Assembly (NCBI RefSeq): GCF_019285735.1
Contig: NZ_CP079107.1
Location: 1,240,001 to 1,304,000, forward strand
Length of the DNA stretch: 64,000 nucleotides
Source of the DNA: Paeniglutamicibacter sp. Y32M11
Lineage (GTDB): Bacteria; Actinomycetota; Actinomycetes; Actinomycetales; Micrococcaceae
Reading direction: 5' to 3'
Shown: positions 16,452 through 35,794 of the stretch, one piece after another
Layout: each line of letters starts with the position of its first letter
Position numbering within the stretch: position 1 is the first letter of the stretch
The notes under the pieces: generated by a model
The model's database searches: none
What the model saw: only the letters and a program-made list of their open reading frames with translations
Told to the model about the DNA's origin: nothing
Program-made: the position numbers and the translations under genes

Positions 16452-16657
16452 AAAGATTTGCTTGATCGTTTCAAGACCCCCGAACCGTTTCGCATCGAAG
16501 TGATAGGGGGGTCGCAAACGCTGAGCAACAGTTATGGGGGAGGCATTCGGGAGTGCCCGAGGGGCAAATAGGGCGTTCTTACGCAGCTCAAAGTTCTAAG
16601 TCAGGATGAGTAGCGAGGCCCAAAGTGCTTCGATCGTAAAGCTTTGAATCGAAGCCC

Positions 16658-17336: not shown

Positions 17337-17404
17337 AGCGGGCGAGGGGCACAACGATTTTTAGGGAACCCATCGGGCATCTACTGTTCCGGAAAATTGG
17401 GCGT

Positions 17405-18292
17405 AGAAGTTCCGCCAATAGGCGTTGGAGACACACGGTTTGCGATTGAGCGGGGTGTCCCAGCGATGGGTATGTCAGGCGTGGCGGATAAGTCGCTTGA
17501 GAGCGATGACGCTGTTGGAGAGGCTGATCATGGCGTCGATGACTAGTGCTTTGCAGTTGGTGCCGATGAGGCGTTTTATGAAGCCACGGTGGTGCCAGGA
17601 TTTGATTCGTTCAACGGCCCTCAGGTCCCCGGCTTGGAGCGGTTCGCCGCTGTTGCTGATCAACCATTCGCAGCCCAGATTGGTAAGTAGGTCGCGGGTT
17701 TTCTTGCTGTCGTATCCTGCATCCAGTGCACGGTGATCAGCGGGGACATGTGGAATCCAAACCGTGAAGGTTTCTCCAATGTGTGGCGCAGCAATGGCGA
17801 ATCGTTCCGGTTTGCCGGTGTCGTCGGCGAGGACCGATCGCTTAGTTCCCAACTTTCCACGGTCTACCGGCGATTTTCCGGCCATTTCACTGCCGCAGGG
17901 TGCTTTGACGCTGCATCAATCCAGAGCGCCCTTCGCCGGCTGACGGTGATTGCCGAGGTACTGCTGTCGCTGATCTGTTCGTAGGATGCGCCGAGGATGA
18001 GGACGTGGATGACTTCTTCGAAGATCAGTCGGTCACTGATGCGCGGGCGGTGGTATCCCTATGGGTGGTGGTCTTCTGCGGGCGGGATCAGCACCTCAAA
18101 TTGGGTTCAGAGGATTTCCATAAGGAAATGGGGATGGCGGGCACGGTTCTCCTGGGGCCAGCGTTTTCTTGGTCGAAAACAGTCTTAACAGGAGTCGGGC
18201 CCGCTTTCTGCCTTAATGACGCGTTGGGCTCGTTTAATGACGTCGCTGCATTACTTCGGGCCCGACGAGTAACGCCTATTGGCGGAATTTCT
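17405..18292 (-). mobile_element. Decayed IS5-family insertion sequence
   Basis: An 888-bp element bounded by 22-bp terminal inverted repeats (17405-17426 and 18271-18292, one mismatch). The internal transposase, read on the minus strand, is of the IS5 type but is interrupted. No clear target duplication is visible at the ends. The right end touches the stop codon of the neighbouring lipoprotein gene. A partial copy of its left end recurs at 19858 in the same orientation. Confidence 0.88.
17475..18110 (-). pseudogene. IS5-family transposase remnant
   Basis: On the minus strand an N-terminal part can be read (GYHRPRISDRLIFEEVIHVL then ISDSSTSAITVSRRR) with an in-frame stop just before it. The frame then shifts, and the middle of the catalytic domain is missing. 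The C-terminal part is open (17475-17885): SPVDRGKLGTKRS, a DAGYDSKKTRDLL segment and the ending SWHHRGFIKRLIG. The order matches actinobacterial IS5-type DDE transposases, but the copy cannot encode an active enzyme. Confidence 0.85.
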
Positions 18293-18884
18293 TAATTGCA
18301 GTAGAGCTCTTTCGCGCGCAGAGCGGGTTCGGCGCCGTCGCCCCTTGGCGTGTTTTTGTCACATGTCACTGCCCCGATGTTCGACAGGTCCCATGTGTGA
18401 ACCGTTCCCAGAACACGGGGAATATTGGCACATGTAACCATCATGTCGATCGAGATCGGGGTAACCGCTGCGTACCCAAGATGGGTCGCCGGTTCAGCGA
18501 TCCCGTTCAAGAATTCGTCAACTGCGGCCAAGGTGCCAGTTTCGCCAGTGAGAGGTTTTCCCACGGCTTCCTGGATGGCTTCTTGGACTTGAACGTTTTG
18601 AACCCACGTTTCGGGGGGACATCCCAATCGACGCGAGCGGTGAAAGAACTATCGAGCAGAACGGTGCTGTCGGATCTGTTTTCAGTGACACGGCGAATCG
18701 CTGTAAATTCCGCTTTCTCGCTGGCCGTACTTATGACCGCAACAATCGGCTGGTCACAAGCCCTAACAACTTCCGCACTACTCGCTGAAGACTTTTCAGG
18801 TGGGGTGGAAATAGCGGTATTCGCGCTACACGCTGCCAGTAAAGTGACCGCTGCTATTGCGATTGCGGGGCGCATGTACCGCAT
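18292..18884 (-). pseudogene. Lipoprotein gene with a poly-C frameshift
   Basis: The leftward gene begins with a signal peptide and lipobox (LLAAC) and reads to TARVDWDVPP. At a run of six C (G6 at 18613-18618 on the plus strand) the frame is lost. The adjacent frame continues as ETWVQNVQVQEAIQEAVGKP to a TAA at 18292. Adding one C restores a continuous protein of about 197 residues. This may be a phase-variable tract, a recent mutation or a sequencing error. Its ATG overlaps the stop of the upstream secreted-protein gene (TAATG), and its stop codon touches the IS5 end. The family is unknown. Confidence 0.75.
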
Positions 18885-19573
18885 TAGCAGTAACGGGTGC
18901 TTGCCAGATTGGCGAGGCTACCCGCTGGCGTTTTTAGACCACACTCGACGGCAGTGGTTTCTCGAATTGTGTAAGAGCGGCTCGTCCCTTTAGCACCAGC
19001 GACGACCCCTGCAGATCCTGAGGAGCAGACATTCTTCGTCCAGTTTCCCGTCACCTTCACGTTGCCTGCTGCCACTACCAAGTACTTCCCAGGGTTGATC
19101 GTCGCGCTGATACCGATGCTGTTCGACGAAGTTTTGCTACCGTTCCCGGCAATGGCAACGCTGGCGCTGGTGGAAAGCTTGCCGAGGATGACACCGGCTT
19201 CTGCAGCGGCACCAGCCGTAACTGTAATCCCGGCACTCAGCGTGGTTTCGTGTCCAGCCTGTCGTGTGGCTGTAGCGCTTTTCGATGTGAAGTTGGAGTA
19301 CATATCTGCGTGGGTGATCGTCTTGGCCTTCTTCACATTCGTGGTGGTGTACCAGGATCCCTTGAACCCATCGCACGGCACCGCCCACGTATAGAAACCA
19401 CCAGAACTATTCGGTCCGTCTAGCGTGCCGGAGGACGGTTCAATCAACACTGTGGTGTCCCTAGAATCCACTACATCAGGGTTCCCCAGACCTTCTGATG
19501 CCCATGCCGTCGTAGCGGCGCCCGTCATGAGTGAAGCTGCCACTAGAGGAGCAATGAAAAGAGAAATGCGCAT
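18884..19573 (-). CDS. Secreted beta-rich protein, possible pore-former-like
   Basis: A 229-residue exported protein with a Sec signal peptide (cleavage likely after AWA, residue 25). The mature part has four Cys and a long stretch of alternating small and hydrophobic residues (about 105-150, with segments such as TLSAGITVTAGAAAEAG and STSASVAIAG). This resembles amphipathic beta-hairpin segments of aerolysin-type or other beta-barrel-forming secreted proteins. That resemblance is by pattern only. It is translationally coupled to the lipoprotein gene downstream (TAATG). Sequence around it is more AT-rich than the core, suggesting transfer. Confidence 0.72.
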   Translation of the reverse strand: MRISLFIAPLVAASLMTGAATTAWASEGLGNPDVVDSRDTTVLIEPSSGTLDGPNSSGGFYTWAVPCDGFKGSWYTTTNVKKAKTITHADMYSNFTSKSATATRQAGHETTLSAGITVTAGAAAEAGVILGKLSTSASVAIAGNGSKTSSNSIGISATINPGKYLVVAAGNVKVTGNWTKNVCSSGSAGVVAGAKGTSRSYTIRETTAVECGLKTPAGSLANLASTRYC

Positions 19574-19671
19574 GGTGAAACCTCACTGCGGTGCATAGAA
19601 TGAACCAAGTCAGGAGGTGAAAAACCTCAAGTGACTGTGATTGAAAACACTACCCAGCACGTTCTGCTTAA

Positions 19672-19706
19672 GCAAATTGAGTGATTTGAAAATTTGTTCA
19701 ATTTGC
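19672..19706. promoter_or_regulatory. AT-rich inverted repeat upstream of the secreted-protein gene
   Basis: Perfect 9-bp arms GCAAATTGA (19672-19680) and TCAATTTGC (19698-19706) are separated by 17 nt, about 100 nt upstream of the start at 19573. It could be an operator or a transcript end. Nothing else is evident between 19574 and 19857. Confidence 0.4.
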
Positions 19707-19857
19707 AAATCTGATTTTCCTCGCAGAGATGCGCACATCAGAAAGCAATCAATACCTCAATGGAGACATCGCGTGCCCTGGAAATTCTGGAAGCAGCGGA
19801 ATGGAACAACGAAGTGGGGCGGATTTGTTGGTTTGCAGCTAACAGGATTCCTAGACT

Positions 19858-20015
19858 CTTAGAAGTTCAACCAATAGGCGTTGGAGACTCATGGTCTGCG
19901 TTTGGGCCGGGTGTCCCAGCGGTGGGTATGCCTGAGGTGGCGGATGTGTCGCTTGAGAGTGATGGCGCTGTTGGCGAGGCTGATCATGGCCTCGAAGACT
20001 AGATGCTTTGCGCCG
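19858..20015 (-). mobile_element. Left-end remnant of a second IS5-type copy
   Basis: About 155 nt match the left end of the 17405 element in the same orientation, including the start of the inverted repeat and the transposase C-terminus (FEAMISLANSAITLKR versus IDAMISLSNSVIALKR). Homology ends near 20015, and the rest of the element is absent. The sequence to 20178 is unassigned. Near 20143-20166 a short stretch CGAAGCCTAAGCTT resembles the rnj gene end. Confidence 0.8.
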
Positions 20016-20217
20016 TCGACTTTTGCACTCAAGATTGCTGGATGGTCTGCGTCAGCCGGTGAATTCGGTCCAAAGCCGGTGCACGCGTCGGCATTAGCTT
20101 TGCGCCGGGTGGTTAGGTTGACTGCTGATTGTTCCAGCCGCCTTCGAAGCCTAAGCTTCGTTTGATCGCCGAAAAAAGTGGACTGGACCCCGAAAGTTAG
20201 ACTCGGTAAATAAGAGT

Positions 20218-21057
20218 CTACGCAGCGAGTGCCTGAGCCCGATATTCCATCGGGCTCAGGCACTCGAGCGTTAACGAGATGCGCTCGGCGTTGTACCAGC
20301 GGATATAGTCGCGGAGCTCGGTAGTGAACTTCTCGATGTCGGTGAATTCTTGGGGGTGGAACATCTCTTCCTTCAGATGACCGAAGAAGTTTTCCATCAC
20401 CGAATTATCCAAACAGTTGTCCTTGCGCGACATGGATTGAGCCATCCCGGCCTTGGCGAGAAGTTTCTGCCAGCTGGCGTGCTGATACTGAAATCCCTGA
20501 TCAGAATGCATCATCGGGGCCTCACCGGAAGCCAAGGTGCTAATCGCCTCGATCAGTGATTGGTTGGTGAACGCCGTGTTTGGCGATTCTGACACCGAGT
20601 AGGAAACGATCGAGTGGTCAAACAGATCCAGCACTGGGGAGAGATAGACCTTGCGCTCGGCGATCTTAAACTCGGTCACGTCGGTCACCCATTTGGTGTT
20701 TGGTGCCTCAGTGTCGAACTTACGCTTCAGCAGGTTTTCGGCGATCTGGCCGACTTGACCCTTGTAAGTGGAAAATCTGCGGCGGGTGCGGACCTTGCAG
20801 ACCGGTTTTTCTTCACGCATCAGTTTCAGCACGGTCTTGCGTGCGATCTGCCAGCCTCGGCGCGCCAGAACCGCGTGGATGCGTCGGTGGCCGTAGCGGC
20901 TCTTCACTTGGGCGAAAACCTCGTGGATCTGGGCGCGAAGCTCAGCGTGCCGGTCAGGGGACTTGAGTGCGGCCTGGCGATAGAAGAAGGTGGAACGAGC
21001 CAATCCAGCGGCCTGCAGGAGCAGGGGCAGGGAATGGGATGCCTTGAGGGCAATCAC
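20218..21057 (-). CDS. IS3-family transposase OrfB (integrase catalytic domain)
   Basis: A 279-residue part with the rve/DDE integrase core. An N-terminal HTH_21-like segment (SRYGHRRIHAVLARRGWQI) is followed by TKWVTDVTEFKI (first Asp), MMHSDQGFQYQ (second Asp) and DNSVMENFFGHLKEEM (Glu). It lies in the -1 frame relative to OrfA. The functional OrfAB fusion should be made by frameshifting at the A7 run at 21102-21108, so its own ATG at 21057 may not be used. Confidence 0.93.
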   Translation of the reverse strand: MIALKASHSLPLLLQAAGLARSTFFYRQAALKSPDRHAELRAQIHEVFAQVKSRYGHRRIHAVLARRGWQIARKTVLKLMREEKPVCKVRTRRRFSTYKGQVGQIAENLLKRKFDTEAPNTKWVTDVTEFKIAERKVYLSPVLDLFDHSIVSYSVSESPNTAFTNQSLIEAISTLASGEAPMMHSDQGFQYQHASWQKLLAKAGMAQSMSRKDNCLDNSVMENFFGHLKEEMFHPQEFTDIEKFTTELRDYIRWYNAERISLTLECLSPMEYRAQALAA

Positions 21058-21068
21058 GGCACTGACTT

Positions 21069-21560
21069 TCAGCGCGGTGGTTGGTTCCTCAAGGCTCGTA
21101 CTTTTTTTAGGTAAGCGTTCTCAGCCGCCAACCGCCGGTTCTCTAGACGCAGCTTCTCCAGCTCACTGACTTTGACGGATGGGGTGCGCGGCGCAGACGT
21201 GGGTCGGCCCTTAGCCTTGGGGCGCAACCCGTCCTCCCCATGATCACGATAGATGCGGACCCACGTGCGCAAGAGCCTTGGGGAACTGAGTTGGTGCGTC
21301 CGGGCAAGATCCGGTGCAGAGACTTCGCCATCCAGAAATTGACGGACGAGTGCGAGTTTGAACTCGAAAGAAAACACCTGCTTGGTTGGTTTGCTTTCCA
21401 ACGCTGCCCTACCCCAAATCTTGAAACGCTTCTCCAGCTCTCTAACTGCATGAACGCTGACTTCCAATCTTGAGGATACCGCGCAATACCCGAATCCTTG
21501 CTCGAGTAGATCAACGGCAGCCAACCGTTGATCGGTAGTCAATGAACTGCTTTGGAACAT
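21069..21560 (-). CDS. IS3-family transposase OrfA (helix-turn-helix)
   Basis: A 163-residue DNA-binding subunit with two helix-turn-helix segments (early AAVDLLEQGFGYCAVSSRLEV, later KLALVRQFLDGEVSAPDLA). A C-terminal leucine-zipper-like helix (VSELEKLRLENRRLAAENAYL) mediates multimerisation in this family. The start at 21560 was chosen because it lies just inside the right inverted repeat; the longer frame reads through the repeat. Near its end lies AAAAAAA for -1 frameshifting into OrfB. Confidence 0.9.
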   Translation of the reverse strand: MFQSSSLTTDQRLAAVDLLEQGFGYCAVSSRLEVSVHAVRELEKRFKIWGRAALESKPTKQVFSFEFKLALVRQFLDGEVSAPDLARTHQLSSPRLLRTWVRIYRDHGEDGLRPKAKGRPTSAPRTPSVKVSELEKLRLENRRLAAENAYLKKVRALRNQPPR

Positions 21561-21773
21561 GAAAAACTCCCCGAAAGTAAGGAGCTGCATTAAGTTAGTC
21601 CAACTTTCGGGGAGCAGTTCACGTTTCTCAACGGTTCGGAGGGTCTTTTTTGTGCCTAGGGGGGTCTCTTCGAAAGCCCCGGGCTGATGACGGGGATCCG
21701 CACTTGGCGGGCACGTTATCTCGGCAACCGCGGCTGACCTGCGGGAATCTCGGAGCAGCGTCGCGTCTCCGTT

Positions 21774-21802
21774 TTGACAAATGATAATGATTCTCATTAG
21801 TG
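21774..21802 (+). promoter_or_regulatory. Promoter with Fur/Zur-type box for the metallophore operon
   Basis: TTGACA (21774-21779) matches a -35 element. Directly after it lies TGATAAT-G-ATTCTCA (21782-21796), a 7-1-7 palindrome with one mismatch to the Fur/Zur consensus, in the spacer where a bound repressor would block RNA polymerase. The -10 is less clear (TTAGTG/TAGTGT at about 21797). The operon makes a metallophore, so repression under zinc sufficiency (Zur) is the simplest reading; the actinobacterial IdeR/DmdR box is different. Confidence 0.75.
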
Positions 21803-21878
21803 TTTACGAGGTGCTGGCCAGACGTGCCCCCGGCGACCGAACGTCGCAGCCTTGTCCTCGAAAACGGAGAACTCATCG

Positions 21879-22901
21879 ATGAAAAAAATCAATCCCTGGA
21901 TGGTTGTCATGCCCGCCGTCGTCTTGGCGGTGGCGACTGCGTGCGGTACCCCTGCCAGCTCCGTATCCAGCGCAGCAGAAGACGCGGCAATCGGTCCGAT
22001 CAGCCTGGACAGCTGCGGTCGCGAGGTCATCTTCGACGCGCCACCGCAGCGGGTGCTCGCGGTCGGATCGGAGGCACCGGCGCTACTGGTAGCCGCCGGA
22101 GCCGGCGACAAGCTGACGCACTACGCGGGCAGCCTGGAAGTGCCCTTCGACGCCGCGACGAAAACCGTAGTCGAAGGGGCCGAACGGATTGCCGAAGACT
22201 CCCACGACGTCTCCTACGAAATGATCATCGGTTCGGGAGCCGACGTGGTGATCGGCACCGACATCGCGGCGGGAGTTGACCTCGATTCGCTCGCGGATCG
22301 CCTCCAGCAGGCCGGGGTGCAGATGCTGACGGTGAGTGGTTACTGCGCCGGTTTCGAGGATCGCTCCACCGGCGGCTTGAGCGGGTTCGAGCAGATCTAC
22401 CGCGACGTCGAGTCCTACGGCCGACTGTTCGGGACCCAGCAGGTGGCAGCCGAAGCCGTCCAAGACATGCGAGAGCGTGTCGCGGCGGCAGCGGAGCGCA
22501 TCAACCAAGAAGCGGGGGAGCGCGCGCTCTCCCTGTACGTTCCGACCGCCGGCACTCTGGGCTCCTACGGGCACGAATCGCTGGTCTCGGAGCAGATGTC
22601 ACTGCTGGGCCTAAAAAACGTGTTCAGCGATGTGCCCAAGCGCTACTTCGAACCCTCCACGGAGGAACTGGTCGCCAGCGCTGCCGACAAGGTCTTCGCA
22701 ATGTACCTGCCCACCGGATCCTCGGCCATGGAAACCGACCAGGACGTGCTCGACGTGCTTCGCGAGCGGCCAGAACTTGATGGACTTCAGGCCGTCAACG
22801 ACGACGCGTCCGTGGTGCCGCTGAACTACTACTACTCCTCGCCCGGCCCGCTGGCCGTTGACGGGGTCGAGCTGCTGGCCGAACGGCTGGCCACTCCATG
22901 A
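21879..22901 (+). CDS. Metal-chelate ABC transporter binding lipoprotein (FecB/BtuF type)
   Basis: A 340-residue lipoprotein with lipobox ATAC and a periplasmic-binding fold of the siderophore/cobalamin class (PF01497 type). It has the family opening CGREVIFDAPPQRVLAVGSEAPALLVAAGAGDK-like pattern and a late segment RPELDGLQAVNDDASVVPL. The start at 21879 is preceded by CGGAGA. It is the first gene of the operon and overlaps or abuts the racemase gene. By context it should capture the metal-loaded opine metallophore and deliver it to the FecCD-type permease encoded at 27194. The precise ligand is inferred. Confidence 0.9.
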   Translation: MKKINPWMVVMPAVVLAVATACGTPASSVSSAAEDAAIGPISLDSCGREVIFDAPPQRVLAVGSEAPALLVAAGAGDKLTHYAGSLEVPFDAATKTVVEGAERIAEDSHDVSYEMIIGSGADVVIGTDIAAGVDLDSLADRLQQAGVQMLTVSGYCAGFEDRSTGGLSGFEQIYRDVESYGRLFGTQQVAAEAVQDMRERVAAAAERINQEAGERALSLYVPTAGTLGSYGHESLVSEQMSLLGLKNVFSDVPKRYFEPSTEELVASAADKVFAMYLPTGSSAMETDQDVLDVLRERPELDGLQAVNDDASVVPLNYYYSSPGPLAVDGVELLAERLATP

Positions 22902-22990
22902 TCCAGACGGGACCATTGCGCTGGCCCGCGCACACTGCCGGGGACCGGCGCTCCCACGAGGCGCCGGCACGGAGTCGGCCGGGCCACGCC

Positions 22991-23821
22991 ATGTCCCGGG
23001 GCGCCACCGAGGTCGACTTCGTCAAGCTGAGCCCCACCCGCAACACCACCCTGTTGGTCACCAGCAGACACCCGGCGCGGAACTACCGCGCCATCGCCGA
23101 AAAGCTGCTGCGCGCCGAGCATGTGCACGCCGAACAGGTCGGGTTCATCCTGCCAGCGCAATCGCCGGACGCGCAGGTGCGCCTGCACATGGCGGGGGAC
23201 GAGTTCTGCGCGAACGCCACCTTGGCGCTGGCCGCGCTCCACGCCGCGACGCAGGGGCTTCGCGGCCCCGTCGAGCTCCGGCTGGAGGCCTCGGGTGCCG
23301 AGGATCTGCTGGAATGCCGTGTCGAAAGCCACGCCGCCGGCTACCGCTGCGAGCTGGCCAATCCGCTGCCGCTACGGATCGATCCCTACCCGTTCCCCGG
23401 GGCCACCGTAGGTGCCGCCATGGTGCGCTACGCCGATGCGGTGCATCTGGTTATCGAGTGCTCCGGGCACGATGCGGTGCTGCGCGAGCGCGCCGAGCGG
23501 CTGGCCGCGCAGCTGGGGAGTAGCGAAAGTGTGTCCGTGATTGGGGTGATGCTCTATGACTCGGCGAGTGGCGAGCTGGCCCCGCTGATCAACGTCCCGG
23601 CATTGGGCAGCCTGGTGTGGGAGGGAAGCTGCGGCTCGGGAACAGCCTCGCTCGGCGCCTACCTTGCCGCCAAGGCCCAGGCACCGGTGAGCACCGCGGT
23701 GCGGCAACCCGGAGGCACCATGCACGTTCACGCCGACTACGGCTGCGGCAAAGTAACGGAGCTGCGGGTCACCGGGCAGGTGGCCCTGGTGGCCGAGGGG
23801 ACGGCCTACATCCATGACTGA
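22991..23821 (+). CDS. cntK: CntK-like histidine racemase (DapF fold)
   Basis: A 276-residue cofactor-independent racemase of the diaminopimelate-epimerase fold, similar along its length to staphylococcal CntK, which converts L-His to D-His for staphylopine. Both catalytic Cys sites are present: EFCANAT (Cys73) and WEGSCGSGTAS (Cys214). It also keeps EQVGFI, QPGG and a C-terminal GQVALVAEGTAYI block, which I recall from CntK. I chose ATG 22991 because conserved sequence begins there. An alternative ATG at 22898 overlaps the previous stop (ATGA) but adds 31 non-conserved residues. A true dapF exists at 45616, so this is not the lysine-pathway enzyme. Confidence 0.88.
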   Translation: MSRGATEVDFVKLSPTRNTTLLVTSRHPARNYRAIAEKLLRAEHVHAEQVGFILPAQSPDAQVRLHMAGDEFCANATLALAALHAATQGLRGPVELRLEASGAEDLLECRVESHAAGYRCELANPLPLRIDPYPFPGATVGAAMVRYADAVHLVIECSGHDAVLRERAERLAAQLGSSESVSVIGVMLYDSASGELAPLINVPALGSLVWEGSCGSGTASLGAYLAAKAQAPVSTAVRQPGGTMHVHADYGCGKVTELRVTGQVALVAEGTAYIHD

Positions 23822-24626
23822 ATCGGTAACTAACACCGCGGTCTCCGGCGAAACCGCTGCGGGACTGCCGAACACGCTGCGGACCTACCTGCGCCGCTTT
23901 ACCGCGGCCGCCAACGAGTACGACGGCTCGATTCGGCACGCCGCTGAGCTCGAAGAGTTGCTGGCCGACTACTCGCGCTTGGTCACCGACCCGGGCCACG
24001 AGGCCCCCTTTGCGCTATTCGTCGCGGCCGCCGGAACGGACGAGGTGGTGGAGCAGCTGCGCACACAGTCGGCGCGCTGCGTGGCGGTCATCGAGAAGTA
24101 TCGTGCGCTGCGGCTGCTGGCGGGCACGGCGGGAGCTCAGGGCTACTTCGCCAACATCGAATCCTGCATCACCGAGGAATTCGGGGCGGTTGCACCACGA
24201 AAGGAGTCGAAGGTGATGCTCGTCGGCTCCGGGTCCTTCCCGATGACGCTGCTGAACATCTCCGCGCTCACCGGCGCCTCCACCCTCGGGATCGACATCG
24301 ACGCCGAGTCCATCAACCTCGGTCGCCGGGTCGTGGCCCTGCTGGGCGAAGGCCTGGACATCGCGCTGGAAGAAACCGCGATTCACGAACTGGACTTCAT
24401 CTCCGAGGCCACGCACATCGTGATCAGCTCCACGGTGAGCGTGAAATACGAGTTGTTGCACCAGATGCACCCCCTCACCCGCGAGGACGTCGTGGTGGCC
24501 ATGCGCTTTGGCGACGGGCTGAAATCGCTGTTCAACTACCCAATGCAGGAGGTCGACCCCGCGCTCTGGCGCCTGGCCGAGACCATCCGCCGGCCCGAGC
24601 AAGTATTCGATATCGCGTGTACGTGA
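23814..24626 (+). CDS. cntL: CntL-like nicotianamine-synthase-type aminobutanoyl transferase
   Basis: A 270-residue enzyme similar throughout to CntL, which transfers the aminobutyrate part of S-adenosylmethionine onto histidine. The SAM-binding Rossmann region is GSGSFPMT (138-145) and GIDID (159-163), followed by NLGRRVV. AQGYFANIESCITEEFG and VVAMRFGDGLKSLFNYP are further CntL-like blocks. The start overlaps the cntK stop by 8 nt, so the two are coupled. With the racemase upstream, the acceptor is expected to be D-His. Plant nicotianamine synthases share the chemistry but are much more distant. Confidence 0.93.
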   Translation: MTESVTNTAVSGETAAGLPNTLRTYLRRFTAAANEYDGSIRHAAELEELLADYSRLVTDPGHEAPFALFVAAAGTDEVVEQLRTQSARCVAVIEKYRALRLLAGTAGAQGYFANIESCITEEFGAVAPRKESKVMLVGSGSFPMTLLNISALTGASTLGIDIDAESINLGRRVVALLGEGLDIALEETAIHELDFISEATHIVISSTVSVKYELLHQMHPLTREDVVVAMRFGDGLKSLFNYPMQEVDPALWRLAETIRRPEQVFDIACT

Positions 24627-24658
24627 AGCAGCGCCCTAGCAGAAAAGACGTGTAGCAG

Positions 24659-25954
24659 ATGGACGAATTGGGAAACATCCTCATCGCCGGGACCGGCCCG
24701 GTGGCGGTGCAAAGCGCCGTGCTGCTCGCTTCGCTGCCCGGCGCCCTGGGCATCGCCGGGCGCGAGTCCGAGCGTTCCGCGGCCTTCTTCGCGGCGCTGG
24801 ACTCCACCGCGGGCACCGTCCGGGCCGAGGTGCAGAACGCCAGCCATGCCGCGCTGGCGGGACGGTGCCGGATCGAGCAGCGGTTCCGCGGATACGGATC
24901 CGTGGCCGGGAGCTGGGACACCCTGATCCTCACGGTCACCGCGGATGCCTACCTCCCGGTGCTGCGCCAGCTGGCGAGCGAGGTGCTGGCCGGATTCCAG
25001 CGCATCGTGCTGCTCTCACCCACCCTGGGCTCCGGGGCCCTGGTGCGCGAGTACGCCAGGGCACAGGGCACGGATCCGGAAGTCATCAGCTTTTCCAGCT
25101 ACCTGGGTGATACCCGCTGGGCGCAGGGCACCCCGGGCGCCTCGGTGCTGACCGCCGGGGCCAAGGCCCGCATCTACGCCGGATCCAGCCGCGGTGAATC
25201 GCCCGCGCTGCAGCGGCTGCGCGCGGTGCACGAGACGGTGGGCACCGAGCTGAACATCCTGCCCCTGCCGGTGGAGGCCGAGGCACGAAACCTGTCCCTG
25301 TATGTGCATCCGGCGCTATTCATGAACGAGGTCACGCTGCGCGCCGTATTCGCCGCGGCGCCACCGACTCAGTACGTTTACAAGCTTTACCCCGAGGGAC
25401 CTATCACCCCGTCAATGATCCACACCCTGGTGCAGCAGTGGCGGGAGCTTTCGGCCATTCTCACCGCGCTGGGCGGGAAGGGAGTTAACCTGCTGTCCTT
25501 CATGCTCCACGACGGCTACCCGGTGCACCCGCAGAGCATCGACCCGGCACACGTGGCCGCGTTCGAGCAGCTGCCGGCCATCCACCAGGAGTACCTCATC
25601 TACGTGCGCTACGCCTCGCTACTGGTGGACCCATTCTCCGAACCCAGTGCGGACGGGAGATACTTCGACTTCTCGGCCATCCCCATCCGGCCGATCTTCC
25701 GCAACGACTCGGGCCACTGGGACGTGCCACGGATGCCAAAGGAAGACTACTACCGCACCAAGATCATCCAGGGTCTGGCCCGGCACCTCGCGGTGCCCTG
25801 CCCGACGATCGATCACCTCCTGGACGCCTACGAGGGCGCGCTCACGCAGGCGGCACAGGCACTGGGGGACCAGCCGCGCTCCGCGGCCTTTAGCGTGCAG
25901 GACTTCGCAGAAGACCTGGGCATGATCCGCGCCGGCATCGGGAGCGCCGCATGA
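24659..25954 (+). CDS. cntM: CntM-like opine (staphylopine) dehydrogenase
   Basis: A 431-residue enzyme that would reductively condense the CntL product with a 2-keto acid. The NAD(P)H loop is [11 protein letters not shown] (8-18). Arg35 aligns with the Arg33 tied to NADPH preference in S. aureus CntM, and Asp151 in SYLGDTR aligns with the Asp150 tied to pyruvate selectivity. [10 protein letters not shown] (His217), [12 protein letters not shown] and [13 protein letters not shown] match CntM closely. It ends overlapping the MFS gene (ATGA). The expected product is staphylopine-like; alignment is by hand from memory of the staphylococcal sequence. Confidence 0.94.
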
Positions 25955-27186
25955 AGACCACCGAACCGGGAACCACCGAAAAGCTACTGAGCGAACGAAA
26001 GATCATCGCCGAAATCTGGCCGGCCCTGCTGGCCTCGGCCGTGGGCCTGTTGCCCTTCACCGTGCTGAGCACCTTCCTGATACCGATCGCCGATTGGGCC
26101 GAGGCCGGCGTTGCGGAGGTCGGTTCCCTGCGCGGACTGGCCGGGGTGGGTGCGGTACTCACCGGCGTCGCGCTGGCCCCGCTGATTGGGCGCATCGCCC
26201 CGGGCCGCGTGGCCGCCGCCGCCCTGGCACTGCTGGGGGCCGCCGCGGTGCTCGGGACCTTCTCCGGACTGGCCGCGCTGGCGGCCTTCTGCCTGGCCAC
26301 CGGGGTGTCCAACGCGCTGCTCTACCCGGCGCTGTCCACCGCCGCCGCTGACCGCTTCGGGGCTACTCCCGCCGCGGGCCGTGCCGCCACCCTGGTCATG
26401 ACCGCCCAGACGCTGGCCTCCATGGTGGGCGCACCGCTGCTGGTGCTGCCGGCACTGTGGTGGGGCTGGCGGGGCAATCTCATCGCGATCGCGGTGCTCG
26501 CCCTCGCCTTGGCGCCGGCCCTGCTGCGCTACGGCCGCGCACATCCCGGCGCGGATGCTCCGGCCCCGCGGCTGGGCTACCTGGCTGCCTTCCGCACGCT
26601 GGCGGCCATCCCCGGGGCGCGGGCTCTGCTGCTGGTTTCCTTCGGACGGGCCGGCGCGCTGATGGGTCATCTGGCCTTCCTCGCCCCGTTGTACGCGGAG
26701 AAGTTCCAGCTTTCCACCGGCTGGTTCGCCTTCGTCTGGTCTTTGAGCGGAGGCTCCTTCTTCCTCGGGCACCTGCTCGCCGGGCGGATGCTCAACGCGC
26801 AGGACTCCGAGATTCGCACCCGGGCCGTGATGGCCATCGCCCTGGGCACCGGCCTGCTGGCGCTGCTCGGGGTGTACCTTTCCCCGGTGCTCCCGCTGGC
26901 GATGCTGGGCACCGCGGTGCTCTCGGCCAGCCATGCGGTGGTTTCCGCGGCGGTGATGACCCTGCTGGTGCGCCGCTGCGGGCAGGTGCGCGGCACCGCG
27001 CTGAGCCTGAATGCCGCCAGTATGTCCCTGGGATTGTTCCTCGGCGCCGGGGCCGCCGGGGTGGCACTGGGCGCGGCGGGCTATCTGGCCGCGGCCGCGG
27101 TGCTCGGCGGATTCACCCTGCTGGCCCTATTTGCCGCGCTCACCCTGCGCACCAGCACCGATCACCCATCCACAAGCAACCGATGA
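25951..27186 (+). CDS. MFS exporter of the metallophore (CntE-like role)
   Basis: A 411-residue major-facilitator protein with about twelve hydrophobic helices and small, Ala/Gly/Leu-rich composition. It is translationally coupled to cntM (ATGA overlap). In Staphylococcus the MFS protein CntE exports staphylopine, and the position here directly after the last biosynthetic gene argues for the same job. Sequence alone shows only the MFS family. A polar C-terminus ([12 protein letters not shown]) ends the protein. Confidence 0.88.
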
Positions 27187-27193
27187 AGAGGCC

Positions 27194-28324
27194 ATGATGA
27201 CCCAGCTGGACCCCGCACTCCGCGAACCGCGCAGCGCACCACCACCACCGAGTGCCCCGCTGGTCTTCTCCGGCGATGATCTGGAGCACGATCGGCGCAC
27301 CCGGCACACCGCATGGTGGATCGCCGCTCTGCTGGCCGCGCTGCTGATCACCCTGCCGGTGGCCGTGGGCCTTGGGCCGGTGGCCATCGAAGCGGGCACG
27401 GTACTCCAGATCCTGCGCGGGCACCTGGTCGGCGGCGAGCCGATGGGTAGCTGGACCAACTCCGAGGAATCCATCGTGCTGCTGCTGCGCGTGCCCCGGG
27501 TGCTGCTGGGCGCCGCCGTCGGCGCCGGGCTGGCGCTGGCCGGGGTGGCATTGCAGGCCCTGACACGCAACATCCTGGCCGAACCCTACCTGCTGGGCGT
27601 GACCTCAGGGGCCTCAACCCTGTCGGCGGCCTCGATCCTCTTCGGTGCCTCGGCGGGCATCGGATCGGCCTCGCTGGCCGGTAGCGCCTTTGCCGGGGCG
27701 CTGGCCGCCGGGATCGCGGTTTTCCTGCTCGCGCGGGTCGGATCTCAGATGACCTCCACCCGGCTGGTGCTTGCCGGGGTAACGGTGGGCTACGTGCTGC
27801 ATGCGCTCACCTCGCTGCTGATCTTCGCCTCCGATGACCCCAATGCGGGCCGCTCGGTGCTCTTCTGGACGCTCGGTTCGCTGACCCAGGCCACCGGGCA
27901 ATCCGCGCTGATCACCTGGGCGGTGGTGCTGGGCACCATCGCGCTGCTGCTGCTCTGGTCCCGCCCGCTGGACGCGCTGGCCATCGGAGACAGCACGGCC
28001 CAGACGCTGGGGGTCTCCCCGGCGAAGCTGCGCGCGGCGGTCATGGTGGTGACCGCGCTCTGCGTGGGCGCGCTCGTCGCGGCCTCCGGCGGCATCGGAT
28101 TTGTCGGGCTGATCATCCCGCACATCGCCCGGCTGTGCGTGGGCTCCACCCACCGCAAGCTGTTGCCGGTGGCGGCGCTGCTCGGCGCGATCTTCCTGGT
28201 CTGGGCCGACGTGCTCGCCCGGACGGCGCTGGCCCCGCAGGAACTGCCACTGGGCATCGTCACCGCCCTGCTCGGCGCCCCGCTGCTGTTCGTGCTGGTG
28301 CGCAAATTAAACCCGACCCAATGA
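27194..28324 (+). CDS. FecCD-family ABC permease for metal chelate uptake
   Basis: A 376-residue integral membrane permease of the FecCD/BtuC family with about ten helices. An N-terminal cytosolic segment of about 35 residues precedes the first helix. Family hallmarks include RVPRVLLGAAVGAGLALAG and the late GGIGFVGLIIPHIARL block with the EAA-like coupling region. The start at 27194 follows GAAGAG by 3 nt. It should form a homodimer with the ATPase encoded next and accept cargo from the lipoprotein at 21879. Staphylococcal Cnt uses an Opp/Nik-type transporter, so this is a different importer class. Confidence 0.93.
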   Translation: MMTQLDPALREPRSAPPPPSAPLVFSGDDLEHDRRTRHTAWWIAALLAALLITLPVAVGLGPVAIEAGTVLQILRGHLVGGEPMGSWTNSEESIVLLLRVPRVLLGAAVGAGLALAGVALQALTRNILAEPYLLGVTSGASTLSAASILFGASAGIGSASLAGSAFAGALAAGIAVFLLARVGSQMTSTRLVLAGVTVGYVLHALTSLLIFASDDPNAGRSVLFWTLGSLTQATGQSALITWAVVLGTIALLLLWSRPLDALAIGDSTAQTLGVSPAKLRAAVMVVTALCVGALVAASGGIGFVGLIIPHIARLCVGSTHRKLLPVAALLGAIFLVWADVLARTALAPQELPLGIVTALLGAPLLFVLVRKLNPTQ

Positions 28325-28352
28325 GAATCAATCGCCCCAGGAGGCCCACAAC

Positions 28353-29144
28353 ATGATCACAGCCACCGATATTTCCGTGGGCTACGGCGGCACGCTGGTA
28401 GTGAAATCCGCTTCCCTGCACGCCGGGCCCGGGGAGGTCATCGGGCTCATCGGCCCGAACGGCAGCGGCAAGTCCACCTTCCTGCGCACCCTGTACGCGG
28501 CGCTGCGCCCGCGGGCCGGACTGGTCACCCTCGACGAGCAACCGATCACGGCGCTGCGCGGCACCGAGCTGGCCCGGCGGGTGGCCGTGGTCGCTCAGGA
28601 AACGCCCACCGATTTGCCGGTGAGCGTCGCGGACATGGTGCTGCTCGGCCGCGCCCCGCACCGCAAGGCGCTGGCCGCCTTCACCCGCGAGGATCACCAG
28701 GCGGTGGCCGCGGCGCTGAGCCGGGTCGGGGCCCGGGAGCTGGCCGACCGTCGTTATTCCACGCTCTCGGGCGGGGAGAAGCAGCGCGTGCTGGTGGCTC
28801 GCACGCTGGCCCAGCAGGCGGATCACCTGCTGCTCGATGAACCGACCAACCACCTGGACATCCGCTACCAGCACGAGCTTTTGCGCATGGTGGGGCAGCT
28901 CGGGGTCACCACCGTGGTGGTGCTGCACGACCTGAACCTGGCCGCGCGCTACTGCACCAAGTTGGTCATGCTTCAGGACGGCGAGGTGGTGGCGGGCGGA
29001 ACACCAGAGGAGGTGCTGACCCCGGAGATGCTGCTGCGGGTGTACGGGATCCACGTTGAACCGGTTTCGGTGCGCGGGACCCTGCAGCTGGTCTTCAGCA
29101 TGGCGGACGAGCCGGCCATGGCGCACGCGGGGGCCGCCGGCTAG
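28353..29144 (+). CDS. FecE-type ABC transporter ATPase
   Basis: A 263-residue ATPase of the iron-siderophore/B12 import class. Walker A GPNGSGKST (34-42), Q-loop VVAQETPTDLP (80-90), signature LSGGEKQR (138-145) and Walker B LLLDEPTNHLD (159-169) are all intact, with the switch His in VVVLHDLNLAARYC. A strong AGGAGG precedes the ATG. It is the last gene of the metallophore operon and powers the permease at 27194. Confidence 0.96.
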   Translation: MITATDISVGYGGTLVVKSASLHAGPGEVIGLIGPNGSGKSTFLRTLYAALRPRAGLVTLDEQPITALRGTELARRVAVVAQETPTDLPVSVADMVLLGRAPHRKALAAFTREDHQAVAAALSRVGARELADRRYSTLSGGEKQRVLVARTLAQQADHLLLDEPTNHLDIRYQHELLRMVGQLGVTTVVVLHDLNLAARYCTKLVMLQDGEVVAGGTPEEVLTPEMLLRVYGIHVEPVSVRGTLQLVFSMADEPAMAHAGAAG

Positions 29145-29159
29145 GGTGTCGGCTGGTCC

Positions 29160-29180
29160 GCCGGGCCTTGCTGGCCCGGC
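29160..29180 (+). terminator. GC hairpin at the end of the metallophore operon
   Basis: A perfect 8-bp stem GCCGGGCC/GGCCCGGC with a TTGCT loop lies 15 nt after the ATPase stop. No T run follows, so it is a weak or Rho-aided terminator candidate. Confidence 0.55.
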
Positions 29181-29470
29181 GCCGGTGCGCAGAAGCAGCT
29201 GTTCCTCCACCGGACACGAAGTCGGTCCGGGTATATGCGGATCTTGACAACGCGAAAATTCAGCCATCTAAGATGACGGAATATTGATCGCCGGGTGTAG
29301 CGCCGAGAGATCGGCAGCAATTTTCAGCAGCTGTATGCGCGGGATATCGGAAGGAGCGTGAACCGGGATTCCGTGTCCTTAAGGGGAACCTCTTACCGGA
29401 CGGCTGGATGAGTTCCGTTGGCGGATGGTTCATGGATTCGATCGGTGCCTTGCCGAGGCGCCGGGCCCAC
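29181..29470 (+). other. Intergenic stretch with a possible promoter and leader
   Basis: There is no convincing gene. A possible promoter begins with TTGACA (29244-29249) and has TAAGAT about 19 nt later. Downstream lies AAGGAG (29351-29356), then a 17-codon frame from GTG 29358 to TGA 29411 with too short a spacing to be convincing. The MerR gene ends on the other strand at 29471. Confidence 0.35.
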
Positions 29471-30358
29471 TTAGGACGACGCCGCCGCTCCGAGTTGCAC
29501 CGCCAGCTCCATGCTGCGCAGACGGGCCGGGGAGAAGTCGTAGGGCATGCTCCGGATGATCTCCGCCGCGGTCCTCGCGCGGGATCCTTCTACGGGGTCG
29601 GGCGCCGGGTTCGCGTTCTCAGGCGGGTGCAGCTCGTCCCAGGTGTCGAAGAGAGCATCGTCCTGCTCCAACTGACCGGACTCTTCGATGACGCGCATCA
29701 GCTCGGTCTCGAAGGCGTGCCGCTGGACCGCCAGCTCCGCAACTCGGGGGTCATCAACGGCGACCGTGTTATCCAGTGCTTTCTCGGCGGCGTCGAGGCG
29801 GTCGGACTTCGCCCGCAGTGCAGGATGGAGCGCCAACGCGAGGAAGCGGCCGGCCTGGACAGCGGCGCCGAGTGGACCGAAGATCCGCTCGGTGACCAAC
29901 AGGGTATCCAGGTCGTCCTGGCGCAGCGAGCCCTCGGGTGCGGCCTCGAGGCGGGTGGAGACGAAATCGTCGAGCAGTCCCAGTCGGCTCCCAAGGGCCC
30001 GCATGCGCTGCACCGAGGCGCGCTTGTGCTGCAGCTCGGCCTCCTGCGCGGCGAGGGTGTCCTCCAGCCGAGCGAGGACGCCTGCGATCTCGCCCTCGCT
30101 GCCGGCGCCGACTGGTGCGGCGCCTTCGAAGGCGCCGCGGATGTCTTCGAGGGCGATCCCAGCGTCGGCCATGCGGCGGATCCAGAGCAGCCGGATGATC
30201 TCCGCGTAGCCGTACCGGCGGCGGCCGTCGCCGCCCCGCTCCCGCTCGGGCAGCAGGCCGACCTGGTGGTAGTGGCGGATCGTCCGCGGAGTGACGCCGA
30301 CGAATGCCGCGGCGTCGCCGATCAGGACCTCTCGGGGCGGGGTAGGGAACGGGTGCAT
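29471..30358 (-). CDS. MerR-family transcriptional regulator
   Basis: A 295-residue regulator. The N-terminal MerR helix-turn-helix with wing is seen in FVGVTPRTIRHYHQVGLLPE and RRYGYAEIIRLLWIRRM (residues about 20-65). The rest is a long helical effector/coiled region, Ala/Glu-rich, without a Cys metal-binding motif. The start at 30358 (MHPFPT) is where family-like sequence begins; the longer frame adds an unrelated 15 residues. It is convergent with the metallophore operon, and a regulatory link is not shown by sequence. Confidence 0.88.
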   Translation of the reverse strand: MHPFPTPPREVLIGDAAAFVGVTPRTIRHYHQVGLLPERERGGDGRRRYGYAEIIRLLWIRRMADAGIALEDIRGAFEGAAPVGAGSEGEIAGVLARLEDTLAAQEAELQHKRASVQRMRALGSRLGLLDDFVSTRLEAAPEGSLRQDDLDTLLVTERIFGPLGAAVQAGRFLALALHPALRAKSDRLDAAEKALDNTVAVDDPRVAELAVQRHAFETELMRVIEESGQLEQDDALFDTWDELHPPENANPAPDPVEGSRARTAAEIIRSMPYDFSPARLRSMELAVQLGAAASS

Positions 30359-30582
30359 GGCAAACCTCTCGGATTGGGACGGGATGTGCTTCCAGCAGAC
30401 CACATGACGCTACGGCAGGTGCAACGGCCAACGGCCAACGGGACATTGGCATCGGGTATCGCTTGCCACGTTCCCTCGCACATTTCTAGCCCGGGCCCCT
30501 TTGCTGTCCTGACGGTTGCAACGAACCTGACACACAACGCATGGACCTAACAAGATGCGTTCCTTCCATTGATAGTAGGTGG

Positions 30583-30984
30583 ATGACTTCAATGCGTAGA
30601 ACGGTTTCTCCAGTGATTTTGTACGAATCATGGAGCGAGGATCCCGATGATGACGAGTACCTCTGCGAAAGGGATTTTTCGAAGGCCCCGTTTGGCGCAG
30701 AGGAAACCACTTGGGCCACCGTTTACGAGCTCACCGTCAAAGAGATTTTCCTGGGCTCCTTCTCCGAAAAGATCGGGAACATCTTCTATGTCAGGGTCTG
30801 TTCCCCTGGTTTTGTGGATTCCGACCATCGGTTCAGAGGTAGGTGGAGAGTGGAGCTCGATGGCTTTAACGATGCAGAAGCTAGAACGAGGATCGTTGAC
30901 TACGTCGAAAATACGAGGGGTGTTTTCCTGCTCAAAACACCAGTGGAAGTTCTCGCATCTGAGTTCTACTGCGAGGAACGGTAA
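30583..30984 (+). CDS. Imm8-like immunity family protein
   Basis: A 133-residue acidic protein. The pattern of an early WSEDPDDDEYLCE segment, then TVKEIFLGSFSEKIGNIFYVRVCSPGF and a C-terminal RTRIVDYVENTRG, resembles the Imm8 immunity protein family that protects against polymorphic toxins. No toxin gene is seen beside it, so it would be an orphan immunity gene. ATG codons at 30583 and 30592 are both possible starts. Family assignment is moderate. Confidence 0.6.
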   Translation: MTSMRRTVSPVILYESWSEDPDDDEYLCERDFSKAPFGAEETTWATVYELTVKEIFLGSFSEKIGNIFYVRVCSPGFVDSDHRFRGRWRVELDGFNDAEARTRIVDYVENTRGVFLLKTPVEVLASEFYCEER

Positions 30985-31055
30985 GTGGCCGAGCTCTCCG
31001 TCCTACCGTTCCACACGGGAACCTCTTGCGGACCAGTTTGCTTCGATAGCGGAGA

Positions 31056-31529
31056 CTAGACCGTAGTTGGTGTCATGACCCATGCGCCGTCATGCTTCTC
31101 TGCGTTCCAGGCCCGTTTGCTTTCATACTCGATAGGGTGTGATTCGCCTTGGCAAAAATCGACTGCCGATCTTTCGACAGAAATACGACTGAGATTGTTT
31201 TGCTCAGAAAAGAGCAGCCACTGCACGGAATCCGTCGACGCGGTATCAAGATTCTGGACGTTCTTGGCGAACGGTTCTGGAACCAGGTTCGTGTCACTGT
31301 AGGGACAGACAATCAGAACTGTTTCCCACAGGGGAATGGGTGCGCCTTCACCCTCTCCTCTTGGAAGGGCGAAAGCACCCTGTGCATTGTCAGCGGCACT
31401 TGCTAGCGACTCTTGGTATCCGGAATTTTGTGCGCACCCGGTGAGAGAAACCCCGAGGAACAACGACACGGCGAGAAAAGCCCATGCGGTTGGGAACTGA
31501 ACCGGTTTCTTGTTCTGCCTAAACTCCAT
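31056..31529 (-). CDS. Putative lipoprotein of unknown function
   Basis: A 157-residue protein with a basic N-terminus, hydrophobic segment and lipobox LTGC (Cys at about residue 32). The mature part contains two Cys residues (IVC and DFC) that may pair. It is convergent with the Imm8-like gene. I recognise no family; a surface partner of that neighbour cannot be excluded. Confidence 0.65.
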   Translation of the reverse strand: MEFRQNKKPVQFPTAWAFLAVSLFLGVSLTGCAQNSGYQESLASAADNAQGAFALPRGEGEGAPIPLWETVLIVCPYSDTNLVPEPFAKNVQNLDTASTDSVQWLLFSEQNNLSRISVERSAVDFCQGESHPIEYESKRAWNAEKHDGAWVMTPTTV

Positions 31530-31957
31530 GGGTCCATCTTGTCCTACGAAGCTGAAAGCTGCATGCCCATATGCCGCATGACCTCATCGATTCCGCTCGG
31601 GGGACGGCGAATTCTGGCAGTTCCGTAAGAGGGTGGGGATCGGAGCACCGATCACTGTCCCGAGTGGTTGAAAGCCCATAGCCATGCCGTCCCATAGCGG
31701 GAACCTTCCACGGGACACTCTTATGCCTGATTCGGACCAGGCATTATTGCGGGCAGCACCCCTGCATCAACCCACTGATGACGACCTCAATCCGCATTGC
31801 CTCAATGCCTAGCGCCGAGCTGTCCTCACCGACTCCCAACTTCCGCTTTCTAACCCAAAAGTGCGGCGCCCGAGTAGCCGTTGGGTGTGGCAAAGGCTCC
31901 ATCAGAGATGGGAGAGGGTCAACCGTATTCAGATGACCCTCTCCCATTACTTGCGGT
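31530..31957. other. Gene-free stretch with two hairpins
   Basis: About 430 nt with no convincing gene. It holds a 7-bp hairpin ATGCCTG/CAGGCAT (31724-31745) and the stronger hairpin at 31910-31945 described separately. Confidence 0.5.
31910..31945 (-). terminator. Hairpin downstream of the alpha/beta hydrolase gene
   Basis: A perfect 12-bp stem GGGAGAGGGTCA/TGACCCTCTCCC with a 12-nt loop lies 12 nt beyond the stop of the leftward hydrolase gene. Confidence 0.7.
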
Positions 31958-32689
31958 TTAGTTGTCTAGTGAAGCCGCTGAGTGAATGGCATTGGAGAGG
32001 TCAAGGGGCCGACTCCACATGGGCCAGTGCCCTGTGGGGAGATCGATGCTGTCGAGGCGTTCGAGGTTCGCGACTTCGGCAAACACGGGATGGCCTGCTT
32101 CGACCAGCTCCATTACCTGTTTGCTCGAGATCGAGCAGCACACCAGGGTGGTCGGGATGCTACTGCGGGCCTCGTTAGTGAGCTCGACGGGCTGACGAAG
32201 CACTGGGCCGGGCTCAGGGACGGCAAGGGCCCGAAAACGTTCGAGGACCTCTGCACTCAGGCCTTCGAGACTCGCCTGTTGCGCGAGTACATCGAACGAC
32301 GGTAGCGGCAGCTCATTCAACTCAACGGAGAAATCGGGGGCGGTGACATTGCCCGTCGCCACAGGGCCGGAGTCGACCCACACTACCCGGTGGACAAGCT
32401 CAGGGTGCCGGTCCATGACGAGGCTGACGGGGGCGTTAGCCCCGCTGTGGGCGACGAGAACCACGGGCTGATCTCCTTGTTGAGAAATTACGCCCAGGAT
32501 CGCTTCCGCCTGGTCATCGAGAGTCTTCGTCGCACGTGCAGGATCGTCCGCGTCGAGACCAGGCAGTGTCATAGCGATTGCACTGGAGTGGTCGGTTTGC
32601 AAGTGCTCAAGGACTTCATCCCACGCCCAAGCCCCCAGCCAGTGGCCGGCGATGAGAATGATGCTTGGGCTGCGCTTAGTAGTTGTCAT
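31958..32689 (-). CDS. Alpha/beta-fold hydrolase
   Basis: A 243-residue hydrolase. The N-terminal oxyanion-type segment IILIAGHWLGAWAW, nucleophile elbow VAHSGAN (Ser), and C-terminal LPTGHWPMW (His) outline the catalytic triad. The substrate is unknown; esterase-like proteins of this subgroup act on small esters. It is divergent from the WYL regulator at 32763 with a 73-nt gap, the usual layout when the regulator controls the hydrolase. Confidence 0.9.
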   Translation of the reverse strand: MTTTKRSPSIILIAGHWLGAWAWDEVLEHLQTDHSSAIAMTLPGLDADDPARATKTLDDQAEAILGVISQQGDQPVVLVAHSGANAPVSLVMDRHPELVHRVVWVDSGPVATGNVTAPDFSVELNELPLPSFDVLAQQASLEGLSAEVLERFRALAVPEPGPVLRQPVELTNEARSSIPTTLVCCSISSKQVMELVEAGHPVFAEVANLERLDSIDLPTGHWPMWSRPLDLSNAIHSAASLDN

Positions 32690-32762
32690 ATCACAACTCT
32701 CGCAGGCCCTTCGGACAAGGGTGTGTCACTATTTATGTCATGAATTCATTTGGGCCTGAACT

Positions 32763-33461: not shown

Positions 33462-33506
33462 ACCACTGAAGTAACCCTCACCGGGACAGTTTCACTCAGG
33501 TGCAGA

Positions 33507-34820: not shown

Positions 34821-34896
34821 TTCCCGAAACTACCAACGGTTGTTTCCATTGGGAACCAATTAGTGGACACCAAGCGGGAGCCCGCAAGCCGAAGGT

Positions 34897-35688: not shown

Positions 35689-35794
35689 TCTCAAACCGTA
35701 GGGCATGACCTTGAGAGCACCACATCGATACGTCCGATAGGTGATCGTGGCTTAGCTCATTCTGATGTCCGTTGCAGTAGATCCGATAAGAAAT

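Follow-up and report, generated by a model that had tools for sequence, protein, structure and literature searches.

Gene organization of the operon

The window analysed here is a stretch of 64,000 nucleotides from Paeniglutamicibacter sp. Y32M11 (Micrococcaceae), which corresponds to bases 1240001-1304000 of a source genome of 4,173,408 bases in a single contig (NZ_CP079107.1). At 21774-29144 of this window, seven co-oriented genes on the + strand encode a PF01497 lipoprotein, enzymes of the CntK, CntL and CntM types, a major facilitator superfamily (MFS) protein, a FecCD permease and an ATPase (Table 1). We consider it highly probable that they form a zinc-repressed opine-zincophore operon, by which the cell would make, secrete and retake a zinc-binding opine. 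Gene content, gene order, motifs, the operator and their conservation were read directly from the sequence. Opine zincophores have been characterised in staphylococci, pseudomonads, yersiniae and paenibacilli.

Table 1. Features of the predicted opine-zincophore operon, in window coordinates (ABC, ATP-binding cassette)
Feature	Position	Strand	Basis
Promoter: TTGACA -35 and TAGTGT -10-like	21774..21803	+	spacer 18 bp; read from sequence
7-1-7 palindrome TGATAATGATTCTCA, predicted Zur operator	21782..21796	.	within promoter spacer
Substrate-binding lipoprotein, FecB-like, predicted metal-opine receptor	21879..22901	+	PF01497 51 bits; alignment, 9 sequences
CntK-type histidine racemase (predicted)	22898..23821	+	NCBIfam CntK 196 bits; PDB 6jis
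CntL-type aminobutanoyltransferase, nicotianamine-synthase-like (predicted)	23814..24626	+	NCBIfam CntL 265 bits; PDB 7c9m
CntM-type opine dehydrogenase, Asp150 (SaCntM numbering)	24659..25954	+	PF10100 612 bits; PDB 6h31
MFS exporter (predicted), transporter class as CntE	25951..27186	+	PF07690 70 bits
FecCD-type ABC permease	27194..28324	+	PF01032 284 bits
ABC transporter ATPase	28353..29144	+	PF00005 109 bits

The original prediction, made from the letters of this stretch, had named seven co-oriented genes of these types, and all of them were recovered in place on the + strand. It had also called the genes mostly overlapping, which is slightly generous: neighbours overlap at three of the six junctions (lipoprotein gene/cntK by 4 bp, cntK/cntL by 8 bp, cntM/MFS gene by 4 bp), and the remaining three are gaps of 32, 7 and 28 bp. 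The cntK gene has two candidate starts, 22898 and 22991; the former gives the 4-bp overlap, as it does in the open reading frames (ORFs) listed for the Micrococcaceae relatives.

Biosynthetic enzymes, transporters and the predicted product

The CntM protein matched PF10100 (staphylopine dehydrogenase) against a cut-off of 25 bits, and the matches to PF01497, MFS_1, FecCD and ABC_tran were likewise all above their Pfam cut-offs; CntK and CntL gave no Pfam match at E 0.001. The top NCBIfam models for the three enzymes were CntK, CntL and staphylopine dehydrogenase, not unrelated families. Among PDB entries, CntK matched 6jis (E 6e-38, residues 9-276), an entry labelled diaminopimelate epimerase that we take to be S. 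aureus CntK, CntL matched 7c9m (E 5e-62, residues 21-268) and CntM matched 6h31 (E 3e-102, residues 6-423). A cysteine pair, presumably the catalytic one, was kept in 17/17 aligned CntK sequences including that of the window (18 loci were put in, and L009 gave no CntK match). Similarly, Asp at SaCntM position 150 was found in 18/18 aligned CntM sequences, with the motif SSYLGDTR in the window. The claimed full-length resemblance to the staphylococcal proteins, with catalytic motifs retained, is thus borne out by near full-length matches to solved proteins and by these residues. Asp150 is tied to the use of pyruvate, and other CntM enzymes use alpha-ketoglutarate (Morey and Kehl-Fie, 2020; PMC7438024, main text). 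The invariant CntK cysteines and CntM Asp150 together point to a product made of D-His, aminobutanoate and pyruvate, that is, staphylopine or an analogue.

The layout agrees with the way in which opine-like zincophore clusters are recognised in PMC7438024, by a CntM homologue with CntL and import/export genes within six ORFs: cntL lies immediately upstream of cntM across the 32-bp gap, and the import and export genes lie within three genes either side of cntM. The importer consists of PF01497, PF01032 and PF00005 proteins, and the Opp/Nik-type CntABCDF system is absent from the operon. The best NCBIfam model for the ATPase was F420-0_ABC_ATP, followed by heme and siderophore ATPases, all below cut-off, and no CntE-specific NCBIfam model matched the MFS protein. 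The label "staphylopine-type" given earlier to the operon therefore suits its enzymes and not its importer, which is of the FecB/FecCD kind. The wider claim, that the genes make up a full set for synthesis, export and import of an opine metallophore, is supported by the gene content and the enzyme matches.

Some of these results weigh against a strictly staphylopine assignment. CntK, CntL and CntM all stay below the NCBIfam equivalog cut-offs (196/300, 265/350 and 455/675 bits), so their equivalence to the staphylococcal enzymes is uncertified; the assignment of pyruvate hangs on the single residue Asp150; and nothing related to CntA, the staphylopine receptor, is encoded in the operon. Another opine, related to staphylopine but built with a different alpha-keto acid or amino acid, would account for the distance of all three enzymes from the equivalog models and for an importer class unlike that of staphylopine producers, and the alpha-ketoglutarate-using CntM enzymes provide a precedent (PMC7438024, main text). 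This alternative is possible though rather unlikely, in view of the unvarying Asp150 and of the presence of CntK in 11/11 Micrococcaceae loci.

Promoter palindrome and predicted control by Zur

The start given in the original prediction, 21774, coincides with the first position of the TTGACA -35 box (21774-21779), and the palindrome TGATAATGATTCTCA (21782-21796) sits between this box and TAGTGT (21798-21803). The exact pattern TGANAATNATTNTCA has a single occurrence in the genome (4.17 Mb). This type of palindrome, at a similar position, is shared by 11/11 Micrococcaceae cnt loci, including the window, with a deviation in one half in L030 and L031; TTGAC was kept in 10/11 of them (the exception is L030), and the sequence block around the palindrome is conserved with relatives. 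Among seven genomes of the own genus (g1), the four that carry the operon have one copy of the exact motif apiece, whereas it is present in 0/3 of those lacking the operon, so the exact form travels with the operon in this genus. The Zur protein of S. coelicolor binds a 7-1-7 palindrome, tGaNNatSatNNtCa, and the computed motif of actinobacterial znuA is taaTGaNAANNNTTNtCANta (PMC5472717, text in part); the cnt site fits the former fully and the latter at all but the first base.

A matrix was built from the 11 cnt operators alone, with no zinc gene included, and was run on eight stretches. The window operator, itself a training site, scored 36.1 bits and the next place in the window 8.1 bits. 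At the znuACB-like locus, which had been fetched for its Fur-family gene independently of the motif, the best match (20.7 bits; the next, 0.9) lay about 50 bases before the znuA-like gene. Matches also preceded genes for a COG0523/MRF GTPase in the own genome (19.5 bits) and in G220 (31.8 bits), aztD (25.1 bits), a NikA-type importer in two relatives (29.8 bits each) and the Pseudonocardia operon (27.2 bits). The COG0523, aztD and NikA loci are weaker evidence because they were found via the motif itself.

Three Fur-family genes were found in the genome, one of which adjoins the znuACB-like genes. Its product is nearest to 3mwm, which we take to be S. coelicolor Zur, and to 7vo0, followed by FurB 2o03. 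The znuA-like gene and its permease belong to PF01297 and PF00950, respectively. Zinc is the likely substrate of this transporter rather than the settled one, because the znuA-like protein fits the NCBIfam models AztC (zinc, 68 bits) and MntC (manganese, 62 bits) nearly equally, both below cut-off. Targets of S. coelicolor Zur include COG0523 proteins and ZnuABC (PMC6103462, text in part). An operator that fits the Zur box and also precedes znuA-like, COG0523 and aztD genes argues that the operon is very probably repressed by Zur and that its metal is zinc.

This assignment has its own weak points. The COG0523 and aztD loci were selected by motif, which leaves the znuA-like site as the sole unbiased test; one of five shuffled windows (top scores 8.3, 16.7, 4.6, 1.7 and 1.2 bits) came, at 16.7 bits, to within a few bits of the higher scores of the COG0523 site in the own genome and of the znuA-like site; of the three single-mismatch places in the own genome, the one at 3993691 lies before a gene for 2-keto-4-pentenoate hydratase, which is unconnected with zinc; the scores of the znuA-like protein are divided between zinc and manganese as given above; and NCBIfam does not name the Fur-family protein beside the znuACB-like genes Zur. 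FecCD-type importers classically carry iron chelates and B12. The same machinery may thus serve mainly for nickel, cobalt, copper, manganese or iron, with zinc as one cargo among others, and such a reading would also be consistent with the NikA-type importer behind the same palindrome in relatives, with the ambivalent znuA-like protein and with the binding of several metals by opine metallophores (PMC10653882, text in part). We regard it as improbable, since the operator is common to the COG0523/MRF GTPase and aztD genes and fits the Zur box, and since actinobacterial Zur structures are the nearest solved relatives of the adjoining Fur-family protein.

A scan for the motif with two mismatches returned 61 matches, which are mostly chance and are not taken as a list of the regulon; the znuA-like site is absent from them and was picked up by the matrix. 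The MerR gene at 29471-30403 (- strand, convergent with the operon) was rejected as the regulator; a homologue (E 1e-20 or better) was present elsewhere only in P. terrestris, giving 2/12 loci with the window. As to the aztD locus, the AztD zinc chaperone gene (L062, 7371-8712) has a Zur-like site just upstream, and no azt transporter genes were noticed among the ORFs near it, which were not family-scanned.

NikA-type importers behind the same palindrome

Other exact palindromes in three genomes of a second genus, g23 (G201, G075 and G220), lie in front of a NikA-type ABC importer, and an exact palindrome also precedes the COG0523 gene in G220. An ortholog of the NikA-type binding protein occurs in 7/11 cnt genomes (65-100% identity) and is lacking from 4/11, the own genome included; it was found in 0/4 searched same-genus genomes without cnt. 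Among 18 g23 genomes, at E 1e-120, cnt and the importer occur together in five, cnt alone in one, the importer alone in three and neither in nine (one-sided Fisher 0.03), so that there is a modest link of the importer with cnt in g23. An Opp/NikA-type importer as part of the system in the window strain was rejected: no ortholog was found, the best protein of the own genome being 35% identical to the query, which was the NikA-type binding protein of the relatives and not CntA.

On a more speculative reading, which we hold to be less likely than not, an unmodified staphylopine-type D-His opine is imported by FecB/FecCD proteins unlike CntABCDF, so that the same kind of metallophore would have been paired twice with unrelated receptors. 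The NikA-type importer could possibly be the receptor in strains that take up the zincophore of their neighbours. The importer loci lie at 6435-11229 in L076 and 6188-10989 in L077. The permease ORF in L077 matches the NikB and NikC models in its two halves, and the operator of the importer extends into the beginning of the first ATPase ORF in its listed form.

Proposed function and comparison with known systems

Enzyme activities, product, metal, repression by Zur and the direction of each transporter are predictions from the genes and the operator, and may be combined as follows. When zinc is plentiful, zinc-bound Zur would occupy the palindrome between the -35 and -10 boxes and block transcription; when zinc falls, the seven genes would be transcribed. 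CntK would convert L-His to D-His, CntL would add to it an aminobutanoate moiety from S-adenosylmethionine, and CntM, with a reduced nicotinamide cofactor, would join the product to pyruvate to yield staphylopine or a near analogue of it. Export of the opine would fall to the MFS protein, and the FecB-type lipoprotein would bind its zinc complex outside the cell for import by the FecCD permease and the ATPase. If so, this compact, invariant and apparently Zur-controlled unit of a soil actinobacterium would serve as a safe laboratory model for this kind of zinc capture, and would allow study of how a FecCD-type importer recognises a staphylopine-like ligand.

The enzymes that make coelibactin are unrelated to those of opine metallophores. 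The coelibactin cluster of S. coelicolor is nevertheless comparable as a set of Zur-bound metallophore genes in an actinobacterium (PMC5472717; PMC6103462; both in part), and differs in that coelibactin is a peptide-type zincophore, called enterobactin-type in PMC5472717. The cntKLMABCDFE operon of S. aureus shares the K, L and M enzymes and the MFS exporter with the window operon, and imports via an Opp-type system in place of FecB/FecCD/ATPase. Its expression is Zur-dependent (PMC10653882, text in part), as is predicted for the window operon. According to the main text of PMC7438024, bacillopaline of Paenibacillus mucilaginosus is also made and exported by a racemase, CntL, CntM and an MFS protein, and its CntM falls in a cluster shared with actinobacteria, but this CntM has Ala150 and uses alpha-ketoglutarate, where the window CntM has Asp, and the importers in that CntM cluster outside actinobacteria are Opp-type, unlike the FecCD-type importer here. 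The yersinopine and pseudopaline systems have CntL and CntM in common with the window operon, and the Yersinia cluster also has FecCD-type importers, but they have no racemase and use an EamA exporter (PMC7438024).

The original prediction regarded such a full unit in an actinobacterium of this family as little described, a view that is for the most part not supported: Morey and Kehl-Fie (2020; PMC7438024, main text) recorded CntM homologues from four phyla, Actinobacteria among them, and 24 actinobacteria with opine-zincophore clusters, the layout of racemase, MFS exporter and FecCD importer included. The importers of these actinomycetes are FecCD only in 14/24 and FecCD plus Opp in 10/24. 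The actinobacterial clusters of CntM cluster 1 in that work resemble ours in racemase, CntL, CntM, MFS and FecCD components, and Asp150 predominates there. The kind of operon was thus already catalogued in actinobacteria in 2020, and what is added here is its likely Zur regulator and its chromosomal site. In the main text of PMC7438024, as distinct from its supplementary tables, "micrococc" has 0 occurrences, "Arthrobacter" appears twice (an opine dehydrogenase not involved in zincophores and the reference for it), and Zur appears in one reference only. PMC11309472 was set aside as a report on Paenarthrobacter, as the one "opine-like" occurrence in its available text is a citation of Morey and Kehl-Fie. 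Of the species covered by the available text of PMC10628120, one of them an Arthrobacter, only Paenibacillus vandeheii is said to have an opine-like cluster. Within the literature searched, outside the supplements of PMC7438024, we found neither the occurrence of this operon in Micrococcaceae nor its Zur site reported.

One difference from the catalogued loci concerns a methyltransferase, which the FecCD-only actinomycetes are said to carry in addition (PMC7438024, main text); none was found among eleven window neighbours by Pfam scans. The source itself is uneven on this point, with 14 FecCD-only loci and 8 methyltransferases in the whole cluster. Elsewhere, a 233-residue protein beside L027 has a sub-threshold methyltransferase match and a stronger match to alanine dehydrogenase. 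The next co-oriented downstream gene is alike in three g23 loci (L024, L029 and L031; 84-86% identity), and that of L024, the one scanned, encodes a pyridine-nucleotide-disulphide oxidoreductase.

Distribution and phylogeny

PF10100 was found in 11/395 sampled Micrococcaceae genomes, the own genome included: four of the 15 listed for g1, one of g21 and six of g23, the last out of 18 genomes. In a phylum sample of 396 genomes, only the own genome was above the PF10100 cut-off, and one other match was below it. The closest loci in named genomes are those of Paeniglutamicibacter terrestris (L002) and Arthrobacter sp. MYb229 (L003), then Pseudonocardia alaniniphila (L004), followed by Paenibacillus, Bacillus and Lysinibacillus, with a Reyranella assembly as a weak tenth. 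The identical seven genes stand in identical order in 10/10 other fetched Micrococcaceae loci and in Pseudonocardia. An order common to 11 Micrococcaceae loci and Pseudonocardia is not a chance arrangement, and the seven-gene unit is invariant but patchy in occurrence. With such a scattered distribution at a variable chromosomal site, it would offer a natural example of how a shared public good is gained and lost. The cntM gene of P. terrestris is broken into two frames (L033, operon strand, 7502-8814), which may reflect sequencing error or decay.

The gene trees do not follow genera. L030, a g23 locus, groups with Pseudonocardia with support of 100 in the joint tree, so the unit has probably been passed from one lineage to another; as the two form long branches in some of the trees, none of which is rooted, this grouping is not proof. 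A recent transfer from Staphylococcus or Paenibacillus is unsupported, as the K, L and M sequences of Bacillota group in a single clade, separate from those of actinobacteria, with support of 100 in each of the three trees. These K, L and M trees contain no staphylococcal sequences, and support for many inner branches is weak, the ATPase tree having values as low as 11.

Chromosomal site

The operon lies between rnj (13926-15629) and ftsK (37251-40145). Both flanks are visible in 3/4 g1 loci (window, L002 and L028), the fetched stretch of L025 covering the rnj side only, and also in L003 of g23. In the 11/11 listed g1 genomes without the operon, the same flanks are present; four of these genomes (G180, G200, G210 and G219) have 176 to 477 bases between the flanks, and the other seven about 1.5 to 20 kb. 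From this spacing, the rnj-ftsK interval (15630-37250) is a variable site with an empty form. Relative to P. terrestris, the window has additional sequence in two places, at about 16494-21631, where an IS3-family insertion element forms the end of the stretch, and at about 30873-37205.

A decaying or silent acquisition, that is, a passenger operon non-functional in this strain, might be suspected from the patchy presence, the split cntM of P. terrestris and the IS3 element (20171-21629, 33-nt imperfect inverted ends), which stops about 150 bp upstream of the operator, but it is very improbable, because all seven reading frames are open in the window with third-position GC contents (0.79-0.90) like those of the neighbouring rnj, dapA and ftsK (0.79-0.82 or higher), and because promoter and operator are intact with IS3 outside both.

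The unit has a GC content of 68.8%, compared with 60.8% in the window when 20001-31000 is set aside. This difference is a weak sign of a fresh island, given that the unit ranges from 58.5 to 71.7% across relatives and occupies the same place in other members of the genus. A plasmid origin was also considered: a distant-mode plasmid search returned 574 records, in none of which a single place spanned 80% of the operon, and the matches among the best 20 of the 574 records lie within its FecCD/ATPase part. The stretch at 30873-37205 holds genes for a WYL regulator, a tyrosine phosphatase family protein, an alpha/beta hydrolase, an epimerase and a FAD-binding protein. Elements related to the IS3 element, about 80% identical to it, are present on two Arthrobacter plasmids.

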